Below are positions 4,198 to 59,043 of a stretch of DNA of 64,000 nucleotides, one piece after another. The notes under the pieces are model-generated. The model had not been told where the DNA came from, did not search any database, and was given only the letters and a program-made list of their open reading frames with translations. The DNA comes from Fragilaria crotonensis. Taxonomy: Eukaryota; Bacillariophyta; Fragilariophyceae; Fragilariales; Fragilariaceae. Within the stretch, counting starts at the first letter, position 1; each line of letters opens with the position of its first letter. Position numbers and translations under genes: made by a program. The stretch lies in NCBI GenBank assembly GCA_022925895.1, contig JAKSYS010000005.1, forward strand, positions 335,305 through 399,304, written 5' to 3'.

Positions 4198-5493
4198 ATG
4201 GCTGATGCTCCTGCGAATGGTGGAGACGCCGCTGTGAATGTACCTGCTGGCTCCGTAGCCCTCCTGAGTGATCCTGTGGACGTTATTATCGATAAGCTCC
4301 TCAGGTACGCCATTTTCTTCCTGTGGCTGCCGCCATGGAGATGATCGCTTGTCAGGATGCAGGGATCGATGTTGCCGTGGACGCTCGTCGTAGGTGTTTC
4401 CAGTATGGATTCTACGCGATGACTGTTACGGTCATCGCAGTAGCGGAACGACTTCTCAGTGGGGTCATGTTGGGTTTTGTTTCGTGATGGTATATTTCTT
4501 GTTTGCGTATCATGTCGCTCTCTCACCTTTTCAATTTTTCTTTCTTGTTGCAATTCGTTTCTCAGTGTCAGAGGAGCGCGACCAGGAAAGCAGGTTGATT
4601 TGTCGGAGGCGGAAATCAAAATGCTCTGCCTTCGCAGTCGCGACCTTTTGATCGGCCAGCCCATGCTTCTCGAACTTGAAGCACCTATCAAGATCTGTGG
4701 TGACGTCCACGGCCAGTATTACGACTTGCTGCGCCTCTTTGAATACGGTGGGTTCCCTCCTGAGTCCAATTATGTATTTCTCGGTGATTATGTTGATCGT
4801 GGAAAGCAGTCATTGGAAACTATTTGCCTCCTCTTAGCCTACAAAATCAAGTACCCTGAAAACTTTTTCATTCTTCGCGGTAACCACGAGTGTGCCTCCA
4901 TCAATCGCATCTATGGATTTTATGATGAGTGCAAGAGACGATTCGGAATCAAGCTGTGGAAGACCTTCACGGACTGCTTCAACTGCCTTCCATGTGCCGC
5001 TGTCATCGATGAGAAGATCTTTTGCATGCACGGTGGTCTCAGTCCTGAACTCACTAGTCTTGACCAGGTAAAACGTATTGTGCGTCCAACAGACGTCCCT
5101 GACACTGGACTGCTTTGTGATCTCTTGTGGTCTGATCCTGACAAGGAAATCGATGGCTGGGGTGAGAACGACAGAGGTGTCTCGTTTACCTTCGGTGAAG
5201 ATATTGTGGCACAATTCTTGCACAAGCACGATCTGGACCTTATTTGTCGTGCACATCAAGTCGTTGAGGATGGGTACGAATTCTTTGCCAGACGTCAGCT
5301 CGTCACTCTTTTCTCCGCTCCAAACTACTGTGGTGAATTCGATAACGCTGGTGCGATGATGAGTGTCGACGAGACCCTTATGTGCTCCTTCCAGATCCTC
5401 AAGCCTGCCGAAAAGAGGCAGCGTTTCTCCTATCAGGGAGGTGCCCAGGGGCGACCTGGAACGCCTCAGACCCAAACTGCTGGTGGTCGATAA
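4198..5493 (+). CDS. PP1: Serine/threonine protein phosphatase PP1 catalytic subunit
   Basis: Catalytic subunit of protein phosphatase 1, a metal-dependent Ser/Thr phosphatase that works with regulatory subunits. It is read as two exons: 4198-4304 and 4566-5493, joined over a 261 bp GT-AG intron (donor CTCAG|GTACGC, acceptor TTTCTCAG|TG). The splice restores the family N-terminus ([13 protein letters not shown]). The continuous frame starting at 4459 would begin inside the intron. The product is 344 residues. Metal and phosphate motifs GDVHG, GDYVDRG and RGNHE are intact, as are the late [16 protein letters not shown] segment and the FDNAG loop. The C-terminus has GRPGTPQT, resembling the CDK-regulated TP site of animal PP1. 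Similarity to animal PP1 is very high throughout the core, so the call is firm. Confidence 0.97.
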
Positions 5494-12034: not shown

Positions 12035-14120
12035 ACTTTATTACTCCACTCTCCACTCTCCACTGCTCGCGTTTTTTATGTCATCATACTTTTACAGTAC
12101 CATAATATTACCTGTATCCCTGGTACATCAGTACTCGTTTCAGTAACAATAGTACAGTACCACCTTCTGGTGCCAGATTTGCCCCTTCCTTTCCCAGCCC
12201 TCACAGCATGAAAGCATCTAGTGCCTTGAGTTTGAAATTGACATCATTCTTCTCTTCCTGCAATGACATGTATGATAATATATGAGATATGAACATCGAG
12301 GTCATGGGTCTTACTATTACTAATGTCATACAGAGCTAGCTACTGAAGCACTCAGAATAAGTGCATAATGCATTATGTTAGAGATCTACAGTTGCACTTT
12401 CACAAATGATCATGATTACTGTAAGGTTAGATACCATTATGCACTTCCCTGTACTCCCTCTACTTCAGATTTATTGCAAAATGACAATTGTGGAAATTCT
12501 GGTATTTCCCTAAAATTGCACGTAAAGGAACATATTCATCACTGTATAAGAGCAGATCCAAGCCGGCGTCCAGCTTGAACGGTCATGAATGCAACTTTTG
12601 TTTGAAAAAAGCATAATTCTGGATTTTTCAAGATAGTACCAAAAGTATTTCTCCGCATTCTTGACCCACCACAATAATCTCAATGACAGTTGGATATGAA
12701 CATGTCTTGGCTGGACAGAAATAAAAAAACTTGCATCCCTGACCAATGTGAAGAGCAGCACAAACATTCGAAGGTGAAAGTCCCAATTCAAAATTGTCGC
12801 ATGTACAGACACAATGACATCAGACAATAGTTCTTTGAGTCACTTGCATCTGTAATAACAGACATTTTTTGTGTTTTCAGGGTCAAAGGAAATTTTTTGG
12901 ATACATGCACGTATATAATTATTCGTCCTGCTTTGCAACATTTCATTATGTGGTAGTGTCAACTGAGCCAATGTGAGCATTGGCTTTTTGTTAAAAATTG
13001 CCGCAGCCTACAGTGCAATGAGGACTGAAAGGCATTTAATGAGAACTCGAGTCCTCATAGATCAAAAATTACTAACCTCGCAATATTAATGAAACAAAGG
13101 GAGAACTACTATGAGGAACCAATGGAGATGGTGGTTGAATTTAACATATTGAAAGGTTGCATTTTTGCGACAAGAAAGGCATTGCAAGATCAGCGCAAAC
13201 AATGGACGGGGTGAACCAGCAAAAAACGGTCATCTTGTTGTTGTCTGGTCATAAAAAGTAGTTGTGAGGTTCCTGCTTACTGGTGTTCAAAGTTCTTTGG
13301 CACTGGGATAGCACCATGCAAAGTCAATCAGTGATGATAATTGAATATCAGATTGCTTGATGACATACTTTCCAACAACTATTATTCTCTTTGACAATAA
13401 TGAGGGAACTTTGTTGATGCTGATCGTGGCACGTACTCCAAGTATCGATGTCTCAATGCTGCCATATTTCCTCAAAAGCTTTAAAATCATGGTTTTTAAA
13501 ACACATCTAGAGACCTCCTTGAGAAGATATGGCAGCCAAGAAATGAGTGCTGAGATCTTGAACAGCATCATGAGGCAACGGGGATGCATTCTATTTGTTG
13601 CGATGTACTACTACTAGTAGTAGTAGTGTACCTGGTACTCCAGTAGTAGTTAAGGGAGTCTGTGGGCTACTTAAAGATTTCGCACCCACCAGCCGAACTG
13701 GTACAAGTATGCATATTAGAGTCGATATGGACTACTTGTAGAGTACTCTACTCTCTCTACTCTAGTAGTAGAGTACAGTACATAGTAGCACAGTAGCACA
13801 TACTGAATTATCATACGTTTCACGCCTCATGCCTCATGCCTGACGCCTGACAAGTGTTGGGGATTCCGCTTCTTCCGCGTACAGTATGTGCATAGATTAC
13901 TCTATATTCCACGGATTTGCTACCATACCGCCTAACCCCAGTGCGAAAATTCCGTGCGACAAAAAAGACGACAAAATGTTGAAACCCAATAACGGAGGAA
14001 CAACCCACAACCATTTGATTCTGAAAAGTGCGATCTGTAATGCTTTTAACCTTCTTCCTACATCTGTGAGGATAACTTCCTAATCATGATGCTCGCAAAG
14101 GTACAACATTGCAAACTTCA
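12035..14120. other. Intergenic, no supported gene
   Basis: The frames at 12510-12827 and 13287-13589 (both minus) are about 100 codons, Lys/Leu/Ser rich, and match nothing I know; they may be fragments of old elements. Positions 13605-13800 carry CTACTAGTAGTAGTA and GTAC-rich microsatellite-like sequence. Confidence 0.5.
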
Positions 14121-17100
14121 TCAATTTTTTTTCGGAGTTCGCACGAGTTTGTCGCATGAAAAAAGCTAGCATGCGACAAAAAAAAATACGACTATTGAAA
14201 AATTAACACGAGGAGACTCGCATTGACACAATGATGTTCAGTCTTAAAACCGCCGTATTGGAGCTCTCCTTGGTCTCAGCGATCTCCGAAGTCTTCGTGT
14301 TACCACAGGAGTAATCCGAGATCGAACTCTGCGAGGAGCAGGTGGCTCGTCGTTTTCCTGAGAAGAATCATCTGGATTCACTGAACCTCGATTCGGAGGT
14401 GGTGGTCGGTTTCGATGCGGGATGACGTGAACCACAGCATCCATCTCGGCTGTGCAATAGTCTACCAATGATCTGCTTGTATGAAATAACTCATGGCAGC
14501 TCATGCCGTTGAAACGCTTGACACGACAAAGGCTGACCATGCACACAGGACACATGAACTTCGTCGTACGACCATGCCTGCAGTGCTTTGGATCTGGTTG
14601 ATCATGCCTCTTTCTGCAGCACCAGACACAGCTTGTTGGTTTCGATTCCACTTTGCATAGAACATGTGGCAATGACTGGTCCAATCGTCTTTGAATCATC
14701 TCGCGACTTGTGAAGTACAGCTCGCGCTTGTTGTATGTAAAAGACCTTCCGCTTGTGTTCAGAACACTTCCTTCTCCCGTCTGCTGGATGCTGATACCAC
14801 CATCATCTCCTCCTTCACTGTCGCTGCTGTCATCACCTGAAACCTCAAGTGTTAGGTCTTTAGCAAGAGAACTGCAGAACTTTGAAAAAGACCCATACAG
14901 CTTTCGGTGTGCCTGGAATGCAGCATACGAATTGCACCCATCACTTAGCAGGAATGCAACAGAGCGACTGAGAATGTAGCTCTGATATGCATTATAAACT
15001 CGAGACATCAGAAGACGAAGCCATATGTGTGCCAATGGTGAGAGCTGTGCATGCCGAGCATGGCAGTTCTTCATGTACCGCGAGAACACATCAACAGGAC
15101 CTTTGCTTCGATTCCACATTGCTACAATGGTCGGAATCAACATGCGTCCTGCTGGCAACGGTCTGCCCTGGTCTTCACAAGATTATAGATTGCTCTCCAT
15201 AGTTCCAACGTATTTTGAACAGTGTACTCGTCAACTGCATGCCTCAGCTTCATTCCTCCCAAACACGGTAAACGACCATGAAGTACCCAGGAAAGCTCAC
15301 GATCATGTACCTCTTGCAATGCACATCGATATTGCTCAACCACCTGCTCATCAACATTCACATGAACAACACGAATTATCTTGTGCAATGATGCCACCAC
15401 ATAGAAAGCATGTCGCAGATTGCCACATGCAATGCCATGCAACAATTGACACCTGTACTCGGGCTCAGGAATCATTCGTTTAAAGTCGTCGTTCGTAGGA
15501 GGATCCGTCATAACAACATAAATCGTTGGACACGTGCCGTAGGTCCTGGCCAATGCGGTCTCTTTCATTACTGTTGCGGGGGTGCATTTGCTCTTGATCT
15601 CCACTATGAAAGGAATACCTTCGTCCTCGCCAAATATGTTTTCGTTCTCCGCAACTGCAATCGCATCGGGCGAGAATGCTGCATAGAACATACCTTTTGC
15701 ACATAACAAGCCATATTCCCTGATATGTGTCACAACGAAATCGCTTTCCTGATCAAGAAACAGGGGAAGTCTTGACAATACATTTGACTCATTGAGGGTA
15801 CCTTCACGCATTGAGGTCGATGAGGCAAAGGGCGACATAAACCACTTCTCCAGAAGAAGTTCCAGTATTGGGCATTCCCCGTTTGACTGATCAGATCCTC
15901 GCTCCCCATGAAAGCACTCTATCAATGAGAATTGTTTTGCTCCCTGTCACCAGCAGAGATTTCGCTCGGCAAATATCTTTTAGGTGTGCAACCGACAACC
16001 CCACTAACTCATGTCTACTGTAAATCCGATCAGCCACAGCCTCATTTGGAATGAGTTCATTCGAGCATTTCAACCCAAGTATTTTACAGCTTGACAGGAT
16101 ATTGTGCGACAGCTCCCCTCCACTGGTGACACTGGCGGTGTAACGAGCCCGATGCGCATAGCGCTTCCATAGTGCAAGAGCAGTGGTTCCAGTAATTCGA
16201 AACTGACGCTGGTTGAACCATTCTGGAGATCGTTGCGTATCTGTCAGCTGCTCAACATGGTCTGCTTCAAACAGTCTAATTACTTCATCATCTGTAGGTT
16301 CTGGAGCGACATCGCATCCTGTTGTCGGGTTACAAGGGTAAACTTTCCCGGTCCGTACCTGTCATCAGTCGTTTGCATGAGAACCACCCGGCCTAAGCCG
16401 TTTCGACTGGCCAGTGCATATTGATGTGTAACTCTTGAACCATTTCTTATCGCCTTCGTAGCCCAATAATGGGCTGATGCACCTTCTCTGCAATAAGCCG
16501 CCGGTCTGGGCCCGGATGTTGGTCGTATGTAAAGGGAACGATCGCATTCTCTTTGTTGTTCCCAAAAGCATAGCTCCAACCGACACACTCCACTGGTTGA
16601 CTTCTCCATTCACTCCACCATATCCTCGATCCCAGAAGAAAGTGTTGCCATCGAGTCGGATTTGCGATTCGGATGATACGCCTGTCATACTCCTCTGCAA
16701 TATTTTCACACAGTCCAAAGTTGACTCACCCCGAGCTGCAACATGCCCGCCAATATACAAACCAGTGACCACTGACACTGCTCCATGATGAATGACTCCT
16801 AACCCTTTGCAGGGGTTGTTGATCTGTGAGAACCCGTGATTGATGACCCTCTTTGATCGCATCCGAAGTAAGTCATCGTCCAAACCAACTTGGGTCACTC
16901 CTGCAACAAAAGCTAGCTCTGACCCAGTTGAACGAACAATTTCCATTGCTGCAGCCATTTCTCTGTCATGCTGCATAGGAGGTGTCCAAGTTGATGCTGA
17001 TTCCTGCCTTGAAGTGCCAGACCGTGACAAAGCCTTCAAGATCTCTCGGTATCGAATGAGGTCCATACCCTGTCCTGCAGATGGAAAATTTGCTCGCTCA

Positions 17101-17922
17101 TCCATATCAAAGTACAACGAAGGGGAGACTCGGTAGAATGAGAGCATCAATTCAATCCGAATGAAGGCAAGTATCTCTGAATTCGAGACGGAATCCCAAG
17201 ATAAGTTCTTATTGATGAATTGCTTGATATGTCCCAGCAAATTAGCATCCATCCACGCCTCTAAAAAACGAGCAGGTTCAACCTTCCACAGATTCCTGAC
17301 TCTTCCGCCAAACATCTTGGCTTTCAGACGGTTAAGGACAATTGGTACCTCCTGGCGGGCCACCTCCAGCAGATGTCGGTCTACTACATCGATCTCGATA
17401 GTTGTCTCAAACTCTCTGATGAAGTTCCATTCTCCTATCGGTTCCTCATCGTCGTCTGCATCATCCAAATCAGCATCACCAGCTGAACCAGACATCAAAT
17501 ACATCATATCCTCAAGATCAGAGTCACTTTCATCGCCACCATCACTGTTGTTTGACATGATTGAGGGGACCTTTCAAGAGCAAGAATTGATTTCTTGTTG
17601 ATGCAATGGCGGGTGCTTGTTGTTGCTGCGCACTTCAAAGTGCACATACACCTCTGTATGAGGGTCTACAGATAATACCTACCGTATGTAGAACCTACAG
17701 TGTACAAAGACCTGAACTTTTAGTACGGAGACAGGGTGCACAACTGGTCTCTGGAATGCATGCAAGGGGCAACAAGCGAACTTCAATTGTTGGCATCAAT
17801 GAGAATCGCTGAAAAACATTTGTCGCACGAAATTTCTCGCTAGCTTTTTTCGTAGGACAAAAATTTTGGGATATCCCAAAACTCGGAAGATTTTTCGTCG
17901 CATGCCATGCGACAAAAAATAC
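14121..17922 (-). mobile_element. piggyBac-like DNA transposon, degraded, about 3.8 kb
   Basis: The element surrounds a transposase on the minus strand. Its ends are imperfect inverted repeats: 14133-14190 and 17818-17922 share GCTAGCTTTTTTC, TTTGTCGCA(T/C)G and CGACAAA words in opposite orientation. Each end also contains its own small palindrome around GTCGCATG/CATGCGAC. A TTAA, the piggyBac target, occurs just inside the left end (14202) and near the right end (17932), but I cannot prove which copies are the duplicated target. The exact termini are therefore approximate. Confidence 0.65.
14244..17558 (-). pseudogene. piggyBac-like transposase with embedded SAP motif and YqaJ-type nuclease, frameshifted
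   Basis: Read from 17558 down, the coding sequence alternates between two frames: 17558-16440, then about 16440-16355, about 16355-15925, 15925-15150, and 15150-14244. Each switch is a single-base slip, and apart from stops created by the slips the frames are open. Order of parts: acidic N-terminus; transposase N-terminal and first catalytic region with TQVGLDDDL; the second catalytic Asp in FFWDRGYGG and GTTKR; then SPEWFNQRQFRITG, the usual start of a YqaJ domain; a SAP motif (HELVGLSVAHLKDICRAKSL); a PD-(D/E)XK core (FSPDAIA, then FIVEIKSK); then IPTIVAMWN and GPVDVFSRY, the third-Asp region; and a Cys/His-rich C-terminus (CVWCC, CPVCMVSLC, CHELFH) like the piggyBac cysteine-rich domain. 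An Arg/Pro-rich tail follows. Transposase class is inferred from these signatures. Confidence 0.7.
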
Positions 17923-19402
17923 TGGGGCTAATTAAAACGTGGCAACGATGGACACTTAAACGTGCAACATACATATCCTACTCCTTTTTAAATTTGCTTT
18001 GTGCATGTGTGTGTGTGTGTCTGTTACGGAGTATGACCACTCTGGGGTACTGTTGTACTGTTACGTGGATTACATGTACTACAGGTCTACAGTACATAAA
18101 TCGACGGTAATTTATGTTGAAACGACAGTGTCTTACCTTACTGTAGTACTGTACTGTACGTCTTCAAAGTTACTGGATGGAATAGTCATTGAATTCGTTG
18201 TAAAGCACAGGTTGCTTCACAAATGCTACCAGGTACCTGGTACTGTACAAACCATGCGATGAACTGCAATACTGGGGCATGTGAGCACAACATTGGGGGT
18301 ATCATATGCTGTGTACTCATGTAGTAGCATACTTTTTGGTAAAAGGGTACTGCATACTGTAGAACAAAAAATGTATGCTACTGTAGTAGGTCTGTTCCTG
18401 CGTAGTATGACCACTTTGGGGTTTGGGGTTTGGGGGTACTGCCGTACTGCGCGACCTCTATCCTGTATCCTGTGGTATGTATCATACTACTCCGATCATT
18501 TGTGAGGAACCCACTAGTAAGTACGATATGAGGTGTGTTATTAGTTATTAATCTTTTTCAAATTGTCGACTTCTCGTATCGGTGTACTACAGTACTACAA
18601 TACTGGGAGATGCGGGAAAGTACGGGGCAAATCGACCACGTGCGCTCTACTGTACTGTACGGAAGCCGTATCACTTCGTTGAAGTTCACAGACTGCTACA
18701 GTACTCGTACTGGCTCCTGCTCTATCGCAAAGATAGAAGGCAATCACACGGGAGATACCAAGCTACAAGCTACCAGTTGCAGTATTGTATAGAAAACAAT
18801 ATACAGTACAGTATGTCGAATGGAACAAAACTCGACGGGAACAACGATCACGGCTCGACGACGGCTTGTTGACTTCCTGCTTTTATTTAGTTTTTAATAT
18901 GAAAAGCAGGAATGAAGGAAAAATACTCCCGAAACCATTATTTTTGTATATGCATATTGTTCGATTGACTACAACTTTTATTAGTGTTTTTTAGTATTCT
19001 AATTGTACAATGAGCTGCGCCATTGGCCATCCTACTCGTTGGCTCCCTATTTGCTACAGTATGCATAGTACACTAGAGAGTACCAGGTGCGCCGCGTGAA
19101 GTGTCTGGCTGTTGGCTGGAATTGGAGTGCTGTACCAGGTATGACGTACAAGCATACATACAATACTCGAGAGCCCAGAGTACGTGATATCCGTACGAAT
19201 GTCGATGTACTCGGAGTACAACAGAACTCCGAGCTAAATAATTATTTATCGAGTAAGAAACAGTTTTTGACATCCATGAAACGACTATGTAAGGATCGTG
19301 ATAGTTGACGGTTTTTAGTAACATGTGGTGCAAGAAAATACATAGGCACTATGAGCATTTGTATGAGAGTGGCCGAACGAAGTTTCAAACGACCGCAGCT
19401 GC
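17923..19402. other. Intergenic, GTAC-rich
   Basis: No gene is recognised. The region carries a TG run at about 18005-18021 and many GTACTGTAC-type words between 18030 and 18820. Confidence 0.5.
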
Positions 19403-21902: not shown

Positions 21903-24113
21903 TCACGATGGCATTGCCTCCAAGGCAAGGCACACCTGAGCGAAAGTTGGTCGCTGGGATGGATTCCTTTTGACACAACTACTAATGAGCAACGATAGGG
22001 CCGGCGGACACCATCCTGGAATCTGCGGTCGTTGATCTCGATTGAGAACTGCGAGTGCACATTGAATGGCCGACATGCCTTCGAAGGGACACTCTGCCGT
22101 CAGAAGCTCCCATAGGATTATGCCAAAAGAGAACACGTCAGCGGGTTCAGCATAAGGTTGACTGGCCAGAATCTCTGGCGCCATCCATTGAACGGTGCCA
22201 CAATTCCCTGTCATGCTGCGCTCTTGTGCCTTGAGTCGGCTTAGCCCAAAGTCGCAGACCTTGGCCGTGTAGGATTCGTCTAAAAGTAAATTGGCACTTT
22301 TCAAGTCACGGTGCAGAACTGGAGGCAATCCACTGTGCAAATATGTCATGCCTCTGGCCGCGCCACTTGCTACTCGCTTCACTAAAGCCCATGGCCATGT
22401 ACCTTTCGGGGGGAATGCTGGAATAGAGTTTTCTGGATAGAGCTTGAGATGCCAGGCATCGCGCGTGAAGCCATCCGCCACGACAAATGGGGCATGTAAG
22501 GGCAGCCGGAGCGCGTCCCAGAGCGATCCATTCGCTGCCAATTCTGTGACGATCGCTCGATTCGGTGGATCCAAACAAGCGCCCATGTACAAGCAAATAT
22601 TGGGATGGCGCATACCCTTCAGCATGTTGATTTCGGCAGCGAACTCTTCCAAAATTGCCTTTGAAACGTTGACTCGCTGCGCTGAGCCGGTGAGTACCTT
22701 GACAGCGACTGGAGTCGACCTCCAAGTGGCTCTCCACACTTGTCCAAAACCACCACCACCTATGACCTCTTCGAGATGCAATTCGTCGAAACGAATCGTA
22801 CTCAAGAGTGATTTTGTTGTGTCAGTACTTTGAGTCAAGTTTTTGCGCTTGTGTATTATATTTTTGCGAGGGTCGTTGTCGTCCGAACTCTCCTCCCCTT
22901 CCTCTACAGGATGCACCACCCGACGCAACGGAGATAGAGCAAACGAATGAACAGAATCCTGCGTCGTATGGACAAAGGATGAAGATGATTCAACTGCTTG
23001 GTGGATGGAAGCAGAAAAGGAAGGATCGTGTCTAATATTGCCGGACTCCATCGCAGAATGCAACTCCTCGACTGATATGGATTGAGGTGGTTCAGAATAC
23101 GTCCAGTTAGGCTTTTCAGAACCTGCCAGATTCGGTAAGAAGGGGATGTAGATGTCTTGGCTTGCCGCTTCCAGAGATATGTCCAGGGATGGTGCGATCG
23201 GTGTGTTTTTTCCTTCAAGATCAATGACTTTGCGTCGAAGTCCCGCCTTGGGGGTTTCAGTATCATACAGTGGTGGTGAAAACTTCATTTGCGATGAGGA
23301 GTGCTGGCTGCCTCGTGTGACACCGCGAGGCAGGGGTAGATTCATTGAACTGTCCGATTGGTGATCAGCATCCACCATCGAAGCGAATGAAGACACAGGG
23401 GATAATCGTTTTGCTTTACTCTTCTGTGAGAAGGAAGGCGACATGTCTGTCGCTAAGTTGATGCCTCGTATAGGAGTGCCGAACGGCGGTGGCGACTCTT
23501 GATGCACGTAAAACGAGTTGGAAGGTGATCGATATGTCGAAAGATTCGGGTGTTCGGCAGAAAAGTAGAAGTTTCGATTTGGTTGGCCTTGTTGATCTTT
23601 CTTCCGGTTTTTCGGGTACTCTGGTTCTTTAGGAAAGTAGTCAAATGTAGCTGCTCCCGCGATCGCCTCATTATCACCGGTGTATGAATCAGTTGCACAG
23701 TCGTCACTCCATTCGTCAGTCTTTTTCTTCTTATGCTTCTGCCATGACCGTCGACCCCTCTTGTTCTCATCACTATTTGGCGCACTGTCCGTGACTAAAT
23801 GAAGAAAGAGCGCCAGGAGCAAGCCCATCATGGCAATCAGTGCCATAGCATAGTATTGCCAGGATGATTGCATCATTGAGGGTTTGTGAACAGAATGAAT
23901 GCCATCACCGCTGGGATAGACTTCCTCTAATGAAAATGTCTGCTGATTTCTACTACCTCGCATATGGGCGCTGCTCCGTCGCAGAAAAAGTTCATCCACG
24001 TCTGATTTGACCTTACCGTTGATGTTTCCGTTGTGTACATTCCCATCGCCTAAGCCGGCTATCAGGTGGCCTGCGCGTTGCCTTTTTCCCATGTTGTCAA
24101 GAATCAATGCCAA
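21903..24113 (-). CDS. Membrane-anchored tyrosine-kinase-like (TKL) Ser/Thr kinase
   Basis: A 736-residue protein kinase. A single hydrophobic span lies at about residues 86-108, after a short polar N-terminus, so the protein is probably anchored with the kinase on the cytosolic side. Residues 115-440 are Ser/Pro-rich and probably disordered. The kinase domain occupies 440-736: glycine loop GGGGFGQV (452-459), VAVK Lys near 472, HRDLKSAN near 601, DFGLSR near 621 and GTVQWMAPE near 639, with WELLTAECPFEG after it. The pattern is Raf/MLK-like TKL. An insertion of about 45 residues lies between the hinge and helix E (from LRLPL to WPWALVK). All catalytic residues are present. Ligand or pathway is not evident. 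Confidence 0.92.
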   Translation of the reverse strand: MALILDNMGKRQRAGHLIAGLGDGNVHNGNINGKVKSDVDELFLRRSSAHMRGSRNQQTFSLEEVYPSGDGIHSVHKPSMMQSSWQYYAMALIAMMGLLLALFLHLVTDSAPNSDENKRGRRSWQKHKKKKTDEWSDDCATDSYTGDNEAIAGAATFDYFPKEPEYPKNRKKDQQGQPNRNFYFSAEHPNLSTYRSPSNSFYVHQESPPPFGTPIRGINLATDMSPSFSQKSKAKRLSPVSSFASMVDADHQSDSSMNLPLPRGVTRGSQHSSSQMKFSPPLYDTETPKAGLRRKVIDLEGKNTPIAPSLDISLEAASQDIYIPFLPNLAGSEKPNWTYSEPPQSISVEELHSAMESGNIRHDPSFSASIHQAVESSSSFVHTTQDSVHSFALSPLRRVVHPVEEGEESSDDNDPRKNIIHKRKNLTQSTDTTKSLLSTIRFDELHLEEVIGGGGFGQVWRATWRSTPVAVKVLTGSAQRVNVSKAILEEFAAEINMLKGMRHPNICLYMGACLDPPNRAIVTELAANGSLWDALRLPLHAPFVVADGFTRDAWHLKLYPENSIPAFPPKGTWPWALVKRVASGAARGMTYLHSGLPPVLHRDLKSANLLLDESYTAKVCDFGLSRLKAQERSMTGNCGTVQWMAPEILASQPYAEPADVFSFGIILWELLTAECPFEGMSAIQCALAVLNRDQRPQIPGWCPPALSLLISSCVKRNPSQRPTFAQVCLALEAMPS

Positions 24114-24581
24114 AAGAAATTTGTCACAACCTGTGTCTCCCCTTTATGGTAAGGAAGATCCGGCGACTATAAGAGTATGACTTATATTGGTGAATCAAAT
24201 GCTTGGATGTTCATTCAAGGATGCCACAGTTGAAGGAGCGTCAAGAACGATGGGAGAATAAGAAGGTCTCTAGCGGTTGCGTCGAACTTACTGCGGTGCT
24301 CTACCCTACCATGTCATCCTGCCTGTCACTTTGCACAGTGCACAGGTTCGCATAAACATGGACGTCGCAGTCGGGTTCCGCGTTCTGCGTGATGGAGTCC
24401 ATCTCATACAGTAATGTATCATACGCTACCAGGTACTAGCTAATACTACTAGGTATTGTACTGTATGACATATTGCATATTGATCATAGTACTACTGGTA
24501 CGAGTACTCCGTTTCATTGATCATAGAGAACGAGTACTTGCGTAGAGGGTATAGTACAAGTATCTGTTACAAGTACCTGGT
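24114..24581. other. Intergenic upstream of the kinase
   Basis: No gene is recognised. The kinase promoter is expected here. GTAC-rich words cluster at 24410-24580. Confidence 0.45.
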
Positions 24582-41928: not shown

Positions 41929-42336
41929 ATAGGTTCATCGTACGTGTACCTGGTAGTGCAGTGCACCTACGTGGTACGTGGTAGTCCGAGTACTCTACAA
42001 GTACTGTATGTAAAGCAGGTACATGTACCAGGTAAGTACTGTACAGTACTGAATAGTGACGCAACTTCTCTTTTGGACACACCGGACACCAATCAATCGA
42101 CTTCATGGATACTTGTACCATACTCGGAGTACTCGTACGGATCCAACCGCTGCTCAGATTCATCTGAGGGGATCGTTTTGCTTAGGCAGTCCACCCGGTC
42201 CATTTGTCGACCCACCCAGAGTACATCTCATCGAATCAAGTGAAGGTTTCGAAACCCAATCCGTTTTGGTTTGGCTACTTGCATGCTTCGATCTATCCTA
42301 CTTCCAATTATTCGACGTCAAACGAAACAAAAAGTT
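41929..42336. other. Upstream region of the F1 alpha-like gene
   Basis: GTAC-rich to about 42060, then apparently unique sequence up to the start codon. No separate gene is seen. Confidence 0.4.
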
Positions 42337-44187
42337 ATGAAATTCACTCCTTTCGCACTCTCTCTGGCGTCGCTGGCGAAATGCAGTGCTTGGGCAACGC
42401 TCCCAACCCAACGTCGTGCTGTTGCCTTCCAAACCACACTAGCTGCATCTATCGCCCCCGACGAGATAGTTTCGGTGTCGCCCTTCACACAACAAGAACA
42501 AGGAAACGCAGTTGCTGAGGGTCCCATTGTTTCGTGTTTTCCAGGTGGTCTCGTTGCCGTCTTGCTCGATGACAATGTGACGAAAGCCGCTACTAAATTT
42601 GTATCAATGGCTACAAAATCACCCCTCAAAGGTGATGATCTGGTCGGACGATTAGCGCGACTCCCCTCCGGTTCGTTAGGAGTCGTTATTGCCCAACGGC
42701 CGCCTATGGCCTTTGTGTACAGCGAATCGGTCAGTGGCGATGCTGTCGATGGTGCGGTTCAAATTATGGACCGCATGGCACAAATCGATGTCGGTCATGA
42801 GATGCGAGTCGTCAATTGCTTTGGGCAGCCGGCACCGTCCACATGCATTGGAAGTCACGCAGTCTTCGCTCCCATCCCCAAGGTATCAGATATTGCCTTG
42901 ATCAATTCTCCCATGCTGACAGGAACCACAATGGTGGATGTCTTGGCGCCCATTGGCAAGGGCCAAAACATGCTCTTGATTGGATCTGATATTGAACAAT
43001 TGAGAAATTTGGCTTTGGCGACATTCAAGACGCAGTCGAAAAACCCCAAAATCAAGTGCGTTTACGCAGCAACAAAGGATCCACAACATATCATGACCAA
43101 GTTTGCTGATGTGTTGGATGACATTGTCGTTGTTGGGGCTCGCGATGGTATCATCGGAGACGTTGCGCAAACTGCCGAAGCCATTGTTGTTGCTGGTACG
43201 GCTTGTACGATCGCCGAGGCCTTTGCGGTTGAAGAGGGTATGGATGCGATTGTGGTGGTGGATTCACTAGACTTTCACAAAGCCTTTTGGGACACGACGA
43301 CGCATGTGCTAGTGGATATCTATGGTGTCGACGCCGTTGTTGCAGCTGATCGAGAGGGTGGAGCGTCGTCGGAAATGCGAGGATTCTATTCGTCGTTGAT
43401 TCAGCGAGCGGCTAATTTTCGAAAAGAAGGCGCTGGCAGTGTTACATTAGTTCTCATAGTCACAATGCCAGCAGCACAAGATGATGAAAACACTGTGTAT
43501 ACCCCGCAGGACTTTGCGCAAGCTGGTGAAAAGATCAAGGCTCGTATTGACCTATTGGTAGGGAAAAACATTCCACTCACTGCTGCTACTCTCCGCAAAA
43601 TTCAGATCCCAATCCCTTCCGTTTTGGAGGGAAAGAGGCGGATGGTCCTCCAGCATATTGATGATTTGATCAGCATGTCTGATGGGCAAATATGGTTTGA
43701 TGACGCGCTGAGTGTTGCCGGTCAATCTCCACCCATGGATCCTCAACGAAGCATCACACGAGTCGGTATCGGCGCTGACACCGAAAGTAGAGCCGATGCA
43801 CCAGCAATTCGTCGTATCGCTGAAGGAGTTCGCCTTGATTTGGCGCAAGCAGCTAGTATGGATGGCGCAGAAGCCACAAATGCGACTTGGAAACAAACAC
43901 GGAAACTCAATGCCTGGAAACTGGCCATGCACCAAGAACCAGGGAGCGCTCGATCGCTTTCGGAGTCATGTGTCGTGCTCTTGGCTGCGGCTATAGGTAT
44001 CTTGGACGAAACAGTTGAATGCGGTGGCGTAGCGGGGACCGACGCGGGACAGAAGATTATCAAAGAACTGCTCGAGCATGTCAAGTCCAGAGTTCCTGGG
44101 ATTCTGAATGACATCGATGAAACGTTCGATTTACCAGCAGAAGCGCGGTCTGATTTGGAGGCGGCTATTCGTTCATATTTGCAGTAG
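42337..44187 (+). CDS. Plastid-targeted F1-ATPase alpha-subunit-like protein without P-loop
   Basis: The start is placed at 42337 (MKFTPFALSLASLAKCSAWATLP), 22 codons inside the open frame, because it begins a signal peptide ending in CSA|WATLP, an ASAFAP-like plastid motif with Trp at +1. The product is 616 residues. The body aligns with F1-ATPase alpha subunits: MVDVLAPIGKGQNMLLIG, YAATKD, the Walker B-like IVVVDSLDF, SSLIQRAANF and EGAGSVTLVLIV, and ISMSDGQIWFD. The Walker A segment, normally GDRQTGKT, reads GSDIEQLRNL here, so the Gly-Lys-Thr is absent. About 25 residues after IWFD it leaves the family. Plastid alpha is usually plastome-encoded, so this is a paralogue, perhaps a structural or regulatory relative that does not hydrolyse ATP. 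Its 3' end is 51 bp from the next gene's. Confidence 0.82.
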   Translation: MKFTPFALSLASLAKCSAWATLPTQRRAVAFQTTLAASIAPDEIVSVSPFTQQEQGNAVAEGPIVSCFPGGLVAVLLDDNVTKAATKFVSMATKSPLKGDDLVGRLARLPSGSLGVVIAQRPPMAFVYSESVSGDAVDGAVQIMDRMAQIDVGHEMRVVNCFGQPAPSTCIGSHAVFAPIPKVSDIALINSPMLTGTTMVDVLAPIGKGQNMLLIGSDIEQLRNLALATFKTQSKNPKIKCVYAATKDPQHIMTKFADVLDDIVVVGARDGIIGDVAQTAEAIVVAGTACTIAEAFAVEEGMDAIVVVDSLDFHKAFWDTTTHVLVDIYGVDAVVAADREGGASSEMRGFYSSLIQRAANFRKEGAGSVTLVLIVTMPAAQDDENTVYTPQDFAQAGEKIKARIDLLVGKNIPLTAATLRKIQIPIPSVLEGKRRMVLQHIDDLISMSDGQIWFDDALSVAGQSPPMDPQRSITRVGIGADTESRADAPAIRRIAEGVRLDLAQAASMDGAEATNATWKQTRKLNAWKLAMHQEPGSARSLSESCVVLLAAAIGILDETVECGGVAGTDAGQKIIKELLEHVKSRVPGILNDIDETFDLPAEARSDLEAAIRSYLQ

Positions 44188-46722: not shown

Positions 46723-49119
46723 TCCGATTAGGTTTCACCAATTTGACGTCAGCGCCCACGTCATAGTAATAATCTACAGTGAGACCTCCTGTAGAAGAAT
46801 TTTGAAGACATCGGAAATTTGAATGGCTGACAAAACACGGAATCTTTGTTGTTGACTTCTATCGGTGCTTTTCCTAATGCGCATGCCAAGCCTTTGTCAT
46901 GTCAGATAGATAACTGCTACTCTTCTCCTTCTATCAGTGATTCATGTGTTTCTTTGAATCTTCATGTGTTTCCTTTGAATCACTCGAGTACTACACTGTA
47001 CTGCAACAGTACTACCGTACTCAAAGGACTATTTGCCATTGTACTGTACTGTTGTTATTGGTATTGTGACGACTATTTGAAGATCGAATTTCGATCACCA
47101 AATAGTCGCCATTGTACTGTACTGCTGTTATTGGTATTGTGACGACTATTTGAAGATCGAATTTCGATCACCAAATAGTCGCCATTGTACTGTACTGGTG
47201 TTATTGGTACTGTGACGACTATTTGAAGATCAAATTTCGATCACCAAATAGTCGCCATTGTACTGTACTAGTGTTACTCGACTGTGACGACTATTTGAAG
47301 ATCAAATTTCGATCACCAAATAGTCGCCATTGTACTGTACTGGTGATATCAGACTGTGACGACTATTTGAAGATCGAATTTCGATCACCAAATAGTCGCC
47401 ATTGTACTGTACTGCTGTTACTGTTGTGACGACTATTTGAAGATCAAATTTCGATCACCAAATAGTCGCCATTGTACTGTACTGGTGTTACTGTACTGTG
47501 ACGACTATTTGAAGATCGAATTTGATCACCAAATAGTCGCCATTGTACTGTACTGGTGTTACTTGTACTGTGACGACTATTTGAAGATCGAATTTCGATC
47601 ACCAAATAGTCGCCATTGTACTGTACTGGTGTTACTATACTGTGACGACTATTTGAAGATCGAATTTCGATCACCAAATAGTCGCCATTGTACTGTACTG
47701 GTGATACTTGTATTGTGACGACTATTTGAAGATCGAATTTCGATCACCAAATAGTCGCCATTGTACTGTACTGGTGTTACTATACTGTGATGACTATTTG
47801 AAGATCAAATTTTGATCACCAAATAGTCACCATTGTACTGTACTGGTGATATCAGATGTGACGACTATTTGAAGATCGAATTTCGATCACCAAATAGTCG
47901 CCATTGTACTGTACTGGTGTTACTATACTGTGATGACTATTTGAAGATCAAATTTTGATCACCAAATAGTCACCATTGTACTGTACTGGTGATATTGTAC
48001 TGTGACGACTATTTGAAGATCGAATTTCGATCACCAAATAGTCGCCATTGTACTGTACTGGTGTTACTCATACTGTGACGACTATTTGAAGATCAAATTT
48101 CGATCACCAAATAGTCGCCATTGTACTGTACTGGTGATATCAGATTGTGACGACTATTTGAAGATCGAATTTCGATCACCAAATAGTCGCCATTGTACTG
48201 TACTAGTGTTACTCGCACTGTGACGACTATTTGAAGATCAAATTTCGATCACCAAATAGTAGTCCCCATCCTACTCATGATGTCGAACAAGAACGAAAGT
48301 TGTTTTTAATTCTACTAAATGTACTACTGTGTGCTGTACATCAACAAAATTATCAGAAACATCAGTTTCATGTCCAGAACAGAGGTCGTTGAGTGGTGCC
48401 TCAGGCAAGTGGATCTCTTGCGACATTGATTAGCTAGGACCAAATAATGTGCTTGGAACCTTTGTACATAGAAGTAGTGTACTGAAAGAGGTCATACTTG
48501 GTTTCCAATGATACATTGAAATCGGTTGCATGACAAAATGACCTTTGAAAGGCAAAGAAGCAGTCCATGACATAGCCTTGAGAGCAGATAGAGTCTGATC
48601 CACTGGATGTGGATCCTGCATCAATGGTCCTTCTTGCTTGTTGTGGATGATCCTAAAGAGAACAAAACAGGGGTTGGTTACAGAATAATCGGTAGGTGGG
48701 TGCTGTAGTAACGCAAAATGGCAACAGACAGAGAGCGAACAAGAGCAAAAACAGAACAACAGCAACAAGAGAAACAAAAGCAGCAAGGAGAGCAAGAACA
48801 ACAAGAGAAACAAGAATGACAGGGAGACAAAGTGCCGTACCATCGTGGTTGTGAAATATCAAAATTATGAGTTTTGTGTGAGTAAACTTGAATCCACTAC
48901 TGGTACCCTGTTATATACACATCTAGACACGATCATTTTTATTTCTATTCAAACAAATGTGGCGCTGATTTATGTTCCTTATCTAGAACGTAGTTTTGCA
49001 CAAGAGGTGGTTTGAAAAGTGGGCGCTGAGAAAATCAAAGATAAAGATTCCGTACAAGTTAAATTCCGCAACAAAAGTGCTGAAAAGTGCTGACGTCAAA
49101 TTGGTGAAACCTAATCGGA
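46723..49119. mobile_element. 2.4 kb inverted-repeat element carrying a palindromic array
   Basis: The left end 46723-46753 (TCCGATTAGGTTTCACC and on to GACGTCAGC) is exactly inverted at 49089-49119, and is the same sequence as the ends of the MITE at 25490-25647. Left-side identity between the two elements continues into CGCCCACGTCA. Inside are the 72 bp array (47068-48262) and about 800 bp of AT-rich sequence with a purine-rich AACAAGAGAAACAA run (about 48740-48820). The minus-strand frame 48843-48430 across that run is low complexity and I do not call it. No transposase is present. Confidence 0.75.
47068..48262. repeat. 17-copy array of a 72 bp unit with a conserved hairpin
   Basis: Each unit has GACGACTATTTGAAGATCGA, TTTCGATCACCAAATAGTCG and a linker CCATTGTACTGTACTGGTG. 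The outer arms (CGACTATTTG / CAAATAGTCG) and inner arms (GATCGAA / TTCGATC) pair into a near-perfect stem-loop. Units 11 (about 47788) and 13 (about 47931) carry matched changes in both arms. Unit 7 lacks one C in the inner arm, and the last unit ends with a changed outer arm (AAATAGTAGTCC). Linkers vary most (GTTATTG, GATATCAGA, GTTACTATA). Confidence 0.95.
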
Positions 49120-49648
49120 CCCCGTGAATGTGAATGGACGCAGACATGATGTTGCCGAGTAGTGGTCTGACCGTCTGACCCTTCGCTTAGTCGCCAGAGT
49201 CCAGGCGATACGCGATACCGCGATACGTCGAGCAGTGCGTGCTGCTTACTAGTCTACTGGTACAATATACTTGAAAACTTGCATTTGAGATTTGAAGATA
49301 CTCGGAGTAGGGTGCTACGGTACTGTGATACTAGTACAGTCCCCGTGCTTCGGTGAGGCCAGCCAAAACACGAAGGTCTCAGAACATTACACCCATGCCA
49401 TAACTGCACACCGATACTAACTTGCCTTATATTTCCTTTCAAGCACCGCACGATGGCAACCATCGATACAAGCTTATCTGCCAGAGTCAGGTGTCACGTT
49501 GAGAATCGCTTTCAACGGCTGGACTGCGGAAACCTCATGGCTCATGGTCAGAATTCACACAGATCCTGGAATCTACTGCAAAATGGTATAAAGCGCATGA
49601 AAGGGAGCTAGAGAGGGCAGTAATTTGCGACTACAACGATCTAGCTTA
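49120..49648. other. 3' flank of the PRMT gene
   Basis: No gene is recognised between the element and the PRMT stop codon. Confidence 0.4.
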
Positions 49649-54803: not shown

Positions 54804-57800
54804 TCATTTCTTCCATCGTCTTCCCGTTCTTGACGGTCGCGATTTTCGACTGGAGGATAGGCTCGCGAGTTCTAGATCAACAGTCATGGAACTGCCAGAA
54901 GTGCGGCTGCCGCGAGAACCCACAAAGCGTTCGCCAATCAGACTGCTTGATGATATTGACGATTCATCGCTGAAAAAGCCTGTGAACTCGCGTTCGCCGT
55001 CAGGGAATAGTTGCCGCAGGAGCACTTCAGATTCTGAATCATGGCTATAACTGATTGAGCTTGACGCTGGGATTCTCGGCGATCGGAAAGGCCCGTCATT
55101 GGCATCCCTCGTTCGACTCTCGGAAGAATGACTCGGCTGAATGAAACGATCCGCACCGTACAAGAGGAGAATACAGATTCCAGTCAACGTTAGCCAGATC
55201 GTACGTCCACTCAGGGAATACTTGGTCAGGGGAGTACGGTCAAGCAGGCCTTTCCCCCTGGCACCATTTTCTTCGACTTGAGTCCGAATTGTCCACGCAG
55301 ATATGGTCCTGCTCTGTGAGAGCAACTCGTTCTGATTGTACAACCTGGCGAATGGGGACCGTGCGAAGTTCTGGTCGCCACCTTCAGCTCGTTTCAAGTA
55401 TCCGACTACGATCCGGATGAATTCAGCGTTTTGGATGGCTTCTTGGACGGCGAGAGCGCTGCTTGCCAATGGAGACAAATCACTCTCGATACAGACGGAC
55501 TTTGGCTTGTTCTTAGCAAACAGTATCTGGAGATCTGGACTGCTGCTATGAAATTTGGTAAGTTTCCGTACTGTCTGGTTGCCAGCGTCTCCTTCCTTCG
55601 CACTAGCGACCTCCCCATTTTCAACCTCATTGACGAGCTTTGCTTTCGAATTGTAGAAAGAAATCTGCAAGACAACTCTCACGCCCAAATCCCTTGACGT
55701 AGAACCATTATGTTGGACGTCTCCCTGCCAAGGCGATATCATCAAAACATTAACGTCGCCCGCTGAGAAGGGGGTCGTCTCCATTTCCCCCGCCCCCTTG
55801 ACGCTGTCGACGACCGCTTGAATGAGAGTTTCGGTCACTTCCGAAGTCCATAGCTCTTTGTTTACTCCGCGAAATCCTAGGATGGCATGAACCAAGTATG
55901 GCACTCTACAAGGATCGTCTTTTCCGCAATCACCAAAATGGCATTCCCGAGTTTCCCGTGAAGATTCGTGGCATATGCCGTCCGTCTTTTTCGTAGACAA
56001 AACCAACGTTTGGGAGCAAGATTCGTGACATGCGGTCCAAAAAGACGGACAAGGTTTGCCATCCGTCTGTTTTACGATGGCTTCTGCTGCAGCAATTTCC
56101 GAACATTCGATTTGGCACGGTCGATATTCCGCACAAACACCGTCGCTGCAAATAATTTCAGGAGGGCTGGCACCCTGATGTGGCGTTTCCAACAGCACCA
56201 CGTCATGACAGGACATCCCTGAGTCTGAACCGAAGTCTTCAACACTTCGAGTCCAGACTTCCGTCCCCAATAGAAACTGACCAATGCCATCCCCGCAAGC
56301 CCTTGGATCAGCACTTGCAACACAGGTGGCGCTCAAAACAGGATCCCCCAAGGCGCAGTCATTACCGAATTGCTTCTTGCTATCGACTCCTCGAATCTTG
56401 ACAGACGAATGCTCGTCTTCGTAATCGCAAGTACTTTCCGCAAAACCGACCCGGCCATGTTCCCAATCAAAGACCACGTTGTGCCCTTGCATCGCATTTG
56501 CGCCAAGGACGCCTCCCTGGGTTTCCGTAAAATAGAGCCTGGATGTATAGAGTCCGGTCGTTGTCGAATATTCCATATAGTTAGTGGCAGGAATTGCGAG
56601 TAGGATGTCATATGGTGCGGCCGGATCCAGCGTCCCAGCGAATCCAACCGTTTCGGTTGGCGCTCCTAACGACATGCCGCCATAAGCTCGCATTTGCACC
56701 AAAATTGTCGGCAAGGTCCGCAACTGCTCATCGGTCAAAAGAAATCCATTATGATTATAATCCTTCTTGGTAACAGTCTTCCAAACTGATGAGAAACTTT
56801 TTGCGAGTTTCTTATGCAGGTACGTGTCGGTGGTTCCGGAGTCAACAATCACACCCTTTCCGCTGTTCACGACAGACAGATCTAGTGGAATTTTCAATAC
56901 GTGCTGACCCTCTTCCACTTTACTCGTGGCCCGTTGTCCTCCACCAGCTCGAATAAAAATATTTCGGACATAAACCGTGAACCATCCAGTCGACGCCATA
57001 TTTTTGGCAAACACCATCGGACTCAGATCTAGTCGATTGTCCATTCCACCCAGTGTCATCACCCCAGCCGAGACGCCATTCTTGCTCGTGCCCAACTCTC
57101 GCCGAAAACACATGGCAAACATGTTGTGCTCCACCTTCTTCTTATCATACATTTGTTTCGTAAGTGTGAACTGATGGGCCGACATGCCCATTATACCATC
57201 GGCCAACTGCGTGACGAACAAACCGTTCTCCGACGTTTGGCATCCAAACATGAAGTCGATAGCGTAATTTGTATTTCGCGGATCCGCCATAGCCAGCATA
57301 TCGCGACCTCCCAGATACACCAAATCCTCCACTTGAAAGGCCTCCCATGACGATCCTTCGGTGTACGATTGACTGAACACACATTTATCTTGTTGGCACA
57401 CAGCGCCGAGCTCACATTGGTGACAAGACAGAAATCGAAAAGTTTGGGAGAGATCCGGATCAAAGTAGGGATCGGTGTGATGTTCAGCGCCACAATTTTC
57501 ACACCCCTTGCAAGGGAAGGCGGTATAATGAGAGCCGGTATCGACAATGACCGATTTGCGTTGTGGCGTCGGACTTCCAACCCAAAGGTGGGCGTAGTGT
57601 GTTCCGTAGCCTTGACTAAGTGGAGCAGCGGCATAGTTGTTGTAGCGACCTCCGTGTAGCGACTGCGCTTCTTGCATCTGTCTGTGAGAATAAGTTTTGT
57701 TCCAATCTAATTCCAAGTCTATCGAATTCTCCACTCGAAACCGTCGCTCCCAGCGACTCAAATGACGATGTCGGTGAAAATCTCGCAACGATTTCGGTTG

Positions 57801-58073
57801 GTTTGCTTCGCTGTCCTCGTCCTTAGGCAAGGTAGCATAAACGGCGTTTGAACTTGGGTGAAACCAGTGTTCTGGAAGGTCTGAGGTATTGAGGTACGTT
57901 AACTTGCGTTCGTGCTCCACCAAAGCGGATGGATGTAGATCCAACCGCACAATCGATTTCGCGCCACCATGGGTTGCTATCGATAGAAATATCAATGCCA
58001 ATCTGAATAAATTATGTGAACATTGGATGGAGCGTGAGCTTTCAGTAATACCTCGCATGTGGCTTGAGCTCAT
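54804..58073 (-). CDS. Large pepsin-type aspartyl protease with membrane anchor
   Basis: A 1,089-residue protein. A signal peptide is likely (LFRLALIFLSIATHGGA, residues 22-38). A pepsin-like (A1) domain spans about 155-560: the first catalytic site VIVDTGSHYTAFPC has Asp near 178, and the second GVIVDSGTTDTYL has Asp near 411. A Cys-rich insert follows the first site (CKGCENCGAEHHTD, CHQCELGAVCQQDKC). Residues about 655-745 are Cys-rich with FWTACHESCSQT and RETRECHFGDC, resembling a thrombospondin type 1-like module. One membrane span lies near residues 957-974 (IWLTLTGICILLLYGA), followed by a 111-residue Ser/Arg-rich tail, presumably cytosolic. It is probably a surface or secretory-pathway protease. 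No intron is needed. Confidence 0.9.
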   Translation of the reverse strand: MSSSHMRGITESSRSIQCSHNLFRLALIFLSIATHGGAKSIVRLDLHPSALVEHERKLTYLNTSDLPEHWFHPSSNAVYATLPKDEDSEANQPKSLRDFHRHRHLSRWERRFRVENSIDLELDWNKTYSHRQMQEAQSLHGGRYNNYAAAPLSQGYGTHYAHLWVGSPTPQRKSVIVDTGSHYTAFPCKGCENCGAEHHTDPYFDPDLSQTFRFLSCHQCELGAVCQQDKCVFSQSYTEGSSWEAFQVEDLVYLGGRDMLAMADPRNTNYAIDFMFGCQTSENGLFVTQLADGIMGMSAHQFTLTKQMYDKKKVEHNMFAMCFRRELGTSKNGVSAGVMTLGGMDNRLDLSPMVFAKNMASTGWFTVYVRNIFIRAGGGQRATSKVEEGQHVLKIPLDLSVVNSGKGVIVDSGTTDTYLHKKLAKSFSSVWKTVTKKDYNHNGFLLTDEQLRTLPTILVQMRAYGGMSLGAPTETVGFAGTLDPAAPYDILLAIPATNYMEYSTTTGLYTSRLYFTETQGGVLGANAMQGHNVVFDWEHGRVGFAESTCDYEDEHSSVKIRGVDSKKQFGNDCALGDPVLSATCVASADPRACGDGIGQFLLGTEVWTRSVEDFGSDSGMSCHDVVLLETPHQGASPPEIICSDGVCAEYRPCQIECSEIAAAEAIVKQTDGKPCPSFWTACHESCSQTLVLSTKKTDGICHESSRETRECHFGDCGKDDPCRVPYLVHAILGFRGVNKELWTSEVTETLIQAVVDSVKGAGEMETTPFSAGDVNVLMISPWQGDVQHNGSTSRDLGVRVVLQISFYNSKAKLVNEVENGEVASAKEGDAGNQTVRKLTKFHSSSPDLQILFAKNKPKSVCIESDLSPLASSALAVQEAIQNAEFIRIVVGYLKRAEGGDQNFARSPFARLYNQNELLSQSRTISAWTIRTQVEENGARGKGLLDRTPLTKYSLSGRTIWLTLTGICILLLYGADRFIQPSHSSESRTRDANDGPFRSPRIPASSSISYSHDSESEVLLRQLFPDGEREFTGFFSDESSISSSSLIGERFVGSRGSRTSGSSMTVDLELASLSSSRKSRPSRTGRRWKK

Positions 58074-59043
58074 TGTCGAGGTTCGCCGGGGACGATTATT
58101 GTGTTACCAATTGCCGGTCTCATGTCTATCATCCGTTTGTGCATGTGACAACCTGCAAAAAAAAATTCAGGGTCACAGTCTGGGATGTCTGATGGCTGAA
58201 CTCATACTACTATCGGTAGTAGAGCTCGTAGAGTGGGGTCATTCCCAGTCACAGAACATTTTGGGGAAGTTTTACTGCAACGTCATAAAGCACAACTTTT
58301 TTTGAGTGCTGAAAATCCAACATGTGTAGCTCATGATGACACCAACTTCATCAAAATGAAAGGGTCAACAGAGCCATCCAAATTCATGATCACTGGGACA
58401 ACTTCCTCATCCTTCACAGTTGCGCTTAGTGTTAATCTCATAAACTCCATTTCACAACAAGAGTTTAGGACTTTACTCATTGCTCCCTCTACTTATATGC
58501 CCTACTACACATCTATTCTTTCACTCTCAACTCGTGTACTGCATGTTAGACTCCCACAGCTGGATCGTTTAGGACTTCGATAGTCTTCTTGCTCCTGTTG
58601 GAGTCTCGGGCTTACTTAATAGCGGATCAATAGATTACAGATGTTGAAGGCGAGTAGTTGTTCAACAAACCTGGATCCACTAGCATCCTAAGCAACTTCT
58701 ATGCCAGCCCACGATGAGTTGAACTTTCTTCGGCTGGGACAAGTAAAATACAGCCGCATTCATAGTTTACCGCTAAGAACGAGATTCAAGGCACGTCAGC
58801 TGTCGGCCCAATATGGGTGTTAATCACTACCCGAGAAGAGAGCGATGAATCTTAACTCACATCGACCACTCGACGCCGGTCGAGCATGTGTGGATATACA
58901 TTCCAGCGGAAAAACAAAATCGGCGTTGAAATGCTGTTTCAAGTTTGCCTGGATTGCGCGAGTAGCATCTCTACCGCAGCAATTCACAGATAACTGGTAT
59001 CAGCAATTGCAACAAAATCGTGCATTTACTAGAATTGATAACA
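58074..59043. other. Intergenic, no supported gene
   Basis: Holds the promoter of the protease gene and the 3' flank of the DAHP synthase gene. Short frames here have no family match. A TACTACTATCGGTAGTAGA palindrome lies at about 58206. Confidence 0.5.

Follow-up and report, generated by a model that had tools for sequence, protein, structure and literature searches.

Transposases of the piggyBac superfamily (T. ni piggyBac, piggyBat; PF13843) form hairpin ends and target TTAA (PMC7351741). The insertion domains of DDE/D transposases break the RNase H fold at a single topological place, the one of piggyBac comprising residues 372-433, between D346 and D447 and past the fifth strand (PMC7351741); in piggyBat, a hairpin just downstream of the insertion domain contacts the transposon tip (PMC11707139). 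At least two other groups of transposons are already known to pair a transposase with a YqaJ-type nuclease. KolobokE combines a transposase with a lambda-exonuclease-like PD-D/ExK nuclease, which lies downstream of a Kolobok rather than a piggyBac transposase, and the ISL2EU group of PHIS transposons, which are eukaryotic cut-and-paste elements, encodes its YqaJ exonuclease domain in a separate open reading frame (ORF), alongside a DDE/HTH/THAP transposase that is kin to PIF/Harbinger and has the target A|AT|T (PMC4482050). Here we describe a DNA transposon in which both kinds of enzyme appear to share one chain. It lies in a stretch of 64,000 nt from contig JAKSYS010000005.1 of Fragilaria crotonensis (the whole stretch is called the window below), is about 4.0 kb long (13936-17927), and carries its gene on the minus strand, from an ATG at 17558 to a stop at 14244-14246. 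We consider it likely, taking architecture and family assignment jointly, that this is a piggyBac-superfamily element whose single transposase holds a block of about 370 residues, made up of a SAP motif and a YqaJ/lambda-exonuclease-like nuclease, between its second and third predicted catalytic Asp; this block would lie at the normal place of the insertion domain or immediately behind it.

An earlier note, made from the letters of this DNA, had proposed such a nested architecture, and all the motifs that it quoted are present on the minus strand. However, the window copy is frame-broken: it consists of three open pieces of 397 (16365-17558), 262 (15137-15925), and 304 amino acids (aa) (14244-15158), together with a stretch of the first frame that extends from two stops (16362-16367) to a shift near 15920. 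From the window alone a single protein therefore cannot be proven, but relatives from this genome, which comprises 62.1 Mb in 881 contigs, do prove it. Two of them, L051 and L052, have stop-free frames of 1041 and 999 aa, respectively, which begin ahead of the first Asp motif, extend to the C terminus, and contain, in this order, the Asp motifs, the YqaJ motif, SAP, SPD, ExK, Q, the third Asp motif, and the Cys-rich domain; the nuclease thus belongs to the transposase protein, in a single frame and not in a separate YqaJ ORF as in ISL2EU. The earlier note had named intact relatives with two separate genes as the observation that would speak against it, and the opposite was seen. A third relative, L050, holds a frame of 748 aa that opens just past the second Asp and reaches the Cys-rich domain. 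Upstream of their long frames, L051 and L052 have a short exon, followed by a GT-AG intron that interrupts the PF13843-matched stretch; a GT-AG intron lies between the SFYK and VSP codons in L051, L052, and L050, while the window copy lacks it and reads through these residues.

The same arrangement emerges from a motif table of 25 loci, two of which are halves of one copy and most of the others broken or partial. The second Asp and the YqaJ first motif share a frame in 5 of them, a nuclease core motif and the third Asp share one in 10, and 3 keep everything from the YqaJ motif through the third Asp in one frame. The nuclease occurred as a standalone gene in none of the 25, all of which had been picked by their homology to the fusion. 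The distance between the second and third Asp motifs is 506 residues in L051 and 501 in L052, compared to 119-132 in 14 of 14 canonical piggyBacs of the genome. This spacing, the SAP-nuclease block itself, and a highly divergent catalytic stretch set the family apart from the rest of the piggyBac superfamily.

The assignment to that superfamily draws on both ends of the protein. Open piece 1 comprises an acidic N terminus, a piggyBac N-terminal domain, and the first two Asp motifs, GLDDDLL (16866-16886) and FFWDRGYGG (16614-16640). Its DDE_Tnp_1_7 match (17010-17276; PF13843 positions 2-95, aa 95-183 of the piece) reaches 27.8 bits and that of relative L040 reaches 30.7 bits, with a cut-off of 22.4. 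Open piece 3, recognized by its ORF and a C-terminal profile match, contains the third Asp motif KGPVDVFSRY (15075-15104), C-terminal helices, the Cys-rich domain CVWCCRK...SCHELFH (14481-14630, with CVWCCRK at 14610-14630), and the stop. When compared as profiles with the canonical piggyBacs of the genome, the N part matched across 95 columns (P=3e-5) and the region C-terminal to the nuclease across 176 columns (P=1.8e-4), the latter match being carried by the Cys-rich domain and equaled by 0 of 200 shuffles. The N-terminal and the Cys-rich matches therefore place piggyBac parts on both sides of the block, and the earlier note's reading of a piggyBac-like transposase with a piggyBac-like Cys-rich domain is supported. 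The three Asp motifs occur in the piggyBac order, and in the long alignment of the C part the third one falls in the expected register with the canonical [IV]D-x-HN; the catalytic residues of GLDDDLL, FFWDRGYGG, and GP[IV]DV are putative assignments by this motif register. A position of the block inside the catalytic domain is supported by the two anchoring domains together with the motif register, and by analogy with the known structures the block would occupy the region of the insertion domain and of the tip-contacting hairpin.

The ends and target sites of the element also resemble those of piggyBacs, with CCC termini and TTAA-type 4-bp duplications. Comparing near-identical copies, we found that homology ceases at about 13936 and 17927, where the inverted-repeat ends CCCCAGT...ACTGGGG, accompanied by sub-terminal GTCGCA repeats, are bordered by CTAA on the plus strand (TTAG in gene sense) at 13932-13935 and again by CTAA at 17928-17931. 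The window family comprises seven full-length copies with 98-100% identity (one clipped at a contig edge), a further copy that an insertion has split, and a truncated one. Considering the seven insertions with both ends readable, which leaves out the contig-edge and the truncated copy, five show equal 4-bp TTAN duplications (TTAG, TTAA three times, and TTAT). Among relatives, the duplications are equal in L040 (ATAA) and L051 (TTAG) and unequal in L047. A protein search of the genome returned at least 81 matches on at least 29 contigs, the window's own included (60 of 92 candidates scored), and several subfamilies with protein identities of 42-68% have an identical domain order.

In the block itself, the order of motifs is Q-x4-W-x3-R...ITG, SAP, G-x3-E, SPDAIA, VE[MI]KSK, and YRCQ. 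In the window its YqaJ-type first motif, SPEWFNQRQFRITG (16188-16229, including SPEWFNQRQF at 16200-16229 and RITG at 16188-16199), has a Q-x4-W-x3-R spacing identical to that of lambda exonuclease. The SAP motif follows at 15909-16004, ahead of the nuclease core; it passes the Pfam cut-off of 23.9 bits in the window (31.5), L051 (29.6), and L052 (25.2) and falls just under it in P0001 (22.4), so that this part of the earlier note is borne out. In the PD-(D/E)XK-like core on open piece 2, motif searches and an alignment of phage proteins located REGTLNE (15788-15808), whose G-x3-E is the counterpart of G81/E85 in lambda exonuclease, the putative catalytic Asp motif AFSPDAIA (15656-15679), the E-x-K motif VEIKSKC (15584-15604), and the Gln motif YRCQLLHG (15434-15457). 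Nine phage proteins (lambda exonuclease and eight relatives) have 16 invariant columns; those that match the block motifs include Q19, W24, R28, G81, E85, S117-P118-D119, E129, K131, and Q157 (lambda numbering), while others, e.g., G30 and A88, are not retained. The ordered motif pattern was found in 3 of 3 family proteins and 9 of 9 phage proteins and in none of 20,000 shuffles of L051, with gap ranges that had been fixed after viewing both groups and with the split window copy not run as a whole. L051, L052, P0001, and the window all retain E, SPD, ExK, and Q at their positions.

Profile comparisons point in the same direction. A first, smaller hhalign comparison of the block with phage YqaJ/lambda exonucleases aligned four catalytic motifs with each other (P=0.0022), and a wider version with more members and nine phage proteins gave P=0.001, with 0 of 300 column shuffles scoring higher. 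In addition, the 262-aa piece of the window matched PHROG 434 (RecE-like exonuclease) with E=0.0012. The block differs from YqaJ, lambda exonuclease, and RecE in having SAP between the first motif and the core. Since it passes no curated cut-off, we term it nuclease-like and do not file it in the Pfam YqaJ family; the YqaJ-type nuclease of the earlier note is supported by its ordered catalytic motifs and profile similarity and not by a Pfam match. As judged from these features, the block resembles YqaJ/lambda exonuclease and probably works in the same way. Its amino acid sequence is clearly under constraint, judging from codon comparisons between relatives. Between the unaltered frames of L051 and P0001, the proportion of nonsynonymous differences (pN, Nei-Gojobori) in the nuclease core is 0.18 versus a synonymous proportion (pS) of 0.70, and in the third-Asp part it is 0.11 versus 0.63, which makes the constraint on the nuclease somewhat looser. 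For L051 and L052 the core has a pN of 0.22 with saturated pS, and the SAP region is less constrained (pN of 0.31-0.37 in three pairs); because most pairs show saturation at synonymous sites, we claim no exact ratio.

Several observations weigh against this reading of a piggyBac transposase with an internal nuclease. On the transposase side, the PF13843 match is restricted to about 97 positions at the start of a profile of 349, whose cut-off is not reached by the pieces of L051, L052, and L043. The stretch between the first and second Asp motifs does not significantly match canonical piggyBacs (P=0.51), nor does the third-Asp stretch when compared alone (P=0.12), and zf-Tnp_2 in relative P0001 scores 18.2 bits, under the cut-off of 24. 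At the target sites, two of the seven window-family insertions have unequal flanks (TAAA/TTAA and CTAA/ATAA), and a search with the flanks of three copies recovered an empty site for none of them. On the nuclease side, Pfam YqaJ (PF09588) matched in none of the scans, PHROG 434 matched 0 of 3 relatives scanned, and the hhalign probability for YqaJ is 13-21%; in the first hhalign version, 1 of 300 column shuffles scored higher and one just under. A single-sequence AlphaFold model of the window's nuclease piece alone had a predicted local distance difference test (pLDDT) score of 32 and was unusable. Viral contigs, scanned with three queries (the window piece, L051, and A2), yielded no relatives beyond one chance match, and a scan of other genomes' contigs returned none. 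Finally, a transcript form with the nuclease spliced out may exist.

The nonsignificant match of the third-Asp stretch alone also speaks for the possibility of an end-to-end fusion as in KolobokE, in which the catalytic domain would end ahead of the block, the nuclease would merely lie downstream, and the later "third Asp" would be noncatalytic. Kolobok, too, targets TTAA, which would fit the duplications described above. The CCCC termini, however, speak for piggyBac, as do the above-cut-off N-terminal Pfam match and the resemblance of the Cys-rich domain to piggyBac C termini, by which both flanks of the block are piggyBac. Moreover, Kolobok features a C/DxxH signature between the second Asp and the last catalytic residue (PMC9587614), and neither L051 nor L052 has this signature between the second Asp and the block. 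After the C-terminal profile match and the missing signature, we judge such a fusion less likely, and we keep it as an improbable explanation. Somewhat more weight, although still a low probability, is due to the idea that the block serves, as part of the insertion domain, to bind DNA or the target, with SAP and a dead fold of nuclease shape enlarging that domain for contact with the target or host chromatin. SAP is a DNA-binding motif, which would fit this idea. Insertion-domain loops line the target-DNA channel of piggyBac (PMC7351741). Yet the conservation of E, SPD, ExK, and Q in all four sequences compared suggests that catalysis has been kept.

Two further explanations would remove the nuclease from the transposase altogether. 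If the block were a self-removing or spliced insert, such as an intein with a homing endonuclease or a retained spliceosomal intron, the mature transposase would be ordinary. That the gene has a GT-AG intron elsewhere lends this some plausibility, but the roughly 370 codons are stop-free and in frame in L051, L052, and L050 with pN far under pS, and the Pfam matches include no intein family, which leaves this a very improbable account. The broken frames of the window copy and of most other copies might instead suggest a chimera, in which a chance event brought the nuclease into one copy, or in which the nuclease belongs to a neighboring gene or to a separate or nested element. We regard this as the least probable of the explanations given here, in view of the uninterrupted single frames and of an order that is constant across the subfamilies despite their divergence. 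Furthermore, where individual members of the seven full copies depart from the majority sequence, they do so by 64 insertion or deletion (indel) events, not counting one insertion at an alignment boundary, versus 49 substitutions, and this indel excess in near-identical copies looks more like mostly long-read assembly error in a young family than like old decay. Two genes and a nested second element were rejected on the basis of the frames of L051 and L052 and of the 25-locus table, unless both frames are assembly artifacts.

For the role of the nuclease within the transposase, several models can be considered. By analogy with piggyBac, the part with the three Asp residues (DDD) would cut the ends of the element at TTAN, hairpin them, and paste them into TTAN, while the SAP motif might hold flanking or target DNA. 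Lambda-type exonucleases digest 5' to 3', and the nuclease, if active, could digest the 5' ends at the double-strand break of the donor site. Such resection would steer repair to homologous recombination, and the site would be refilled with a transposon copy, raising the copy number. Resection of the donor break to force recombination repair is our first, tentative choice for the nuclease. Alternatively, it might trim flaps or hairpins at the ends or the target, which we consider rather unlikely, and contact with DNA without cleavage or some other role each seems slightly less likely again. The full scenario of one nested chain with two active centers, with DDD excision and integration and a lambda-exonuclease-like donor resection next to the transposon tip so that each jump adds a copy, is conceivable but doubtful at present.

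An enzyme domain at the place of the insertion domain would show that this place in the RNase H fold accommodates a whole second nuclease. Uninterrupted copies of a fused, cis-acting enzyme permit direct testing, with single active sites changed in turn, and a TTAA-type transposase with built-in resection would, if true, be a new sort of genome-engineering tool. As the earlier note expected, the nested order is unusual next to the downstream nuclease of KolobokE and the separate ORF of ISL2EU. Full-text literature searches, judged by titles and abstract openings and with Repbase and most subscription journals outside their range, showed among the papers listed no piggyBac with a nested YqaJ, SAP, or lambda exonuclease, and an earlier description may exist.

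The remaining observations concern the searches and other sequences of the genome. The chance match in the viral contigs, L082, spans 31 residues of a phage-like contig and was dropped; likewise, five records at E=5 in a tblastn search of phages were taken as chance, as were the PDB sequence matches other than SAP-containing chains. PF13843 has 84 matches in the genome, many of them near full-length, and the 14 examined (among L053, L054, and L070-L081) show ordinary piggyBac spacing. The genome also has 19 matches to the silicon transporter family, 18 of them above the cut-off, and in this respect resembles the genome of a diatom or similar silicifier. The first 152 bp of the element (window 17780-17931) gave 34 main and 22 short secondary matches in the genome. 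Nineteen main matches have at least 93% identity, and 10 of these (93-97%) lie on contigs without any gene-search match, which suggests short nonautonomous copies. L008 and L009 (G000:C261:37364-39795, 48524-49413) are one element copy split by about 8.7 kb of other DNA. A segment of 14 bp of the element is present in both halves and might be a target duplication made by the second insert. Elsewhere in the window lie genes that look like ordinary host genes: a phosphoprotein phosphatase (4444-5490, plus strand), a protein kinase (21906-24143, minus strand), a protein with an ATP-synthase-type alpha/beta domain (42244-44184, plus strand), and an aspartyl protease (54807-58103, minus strand).

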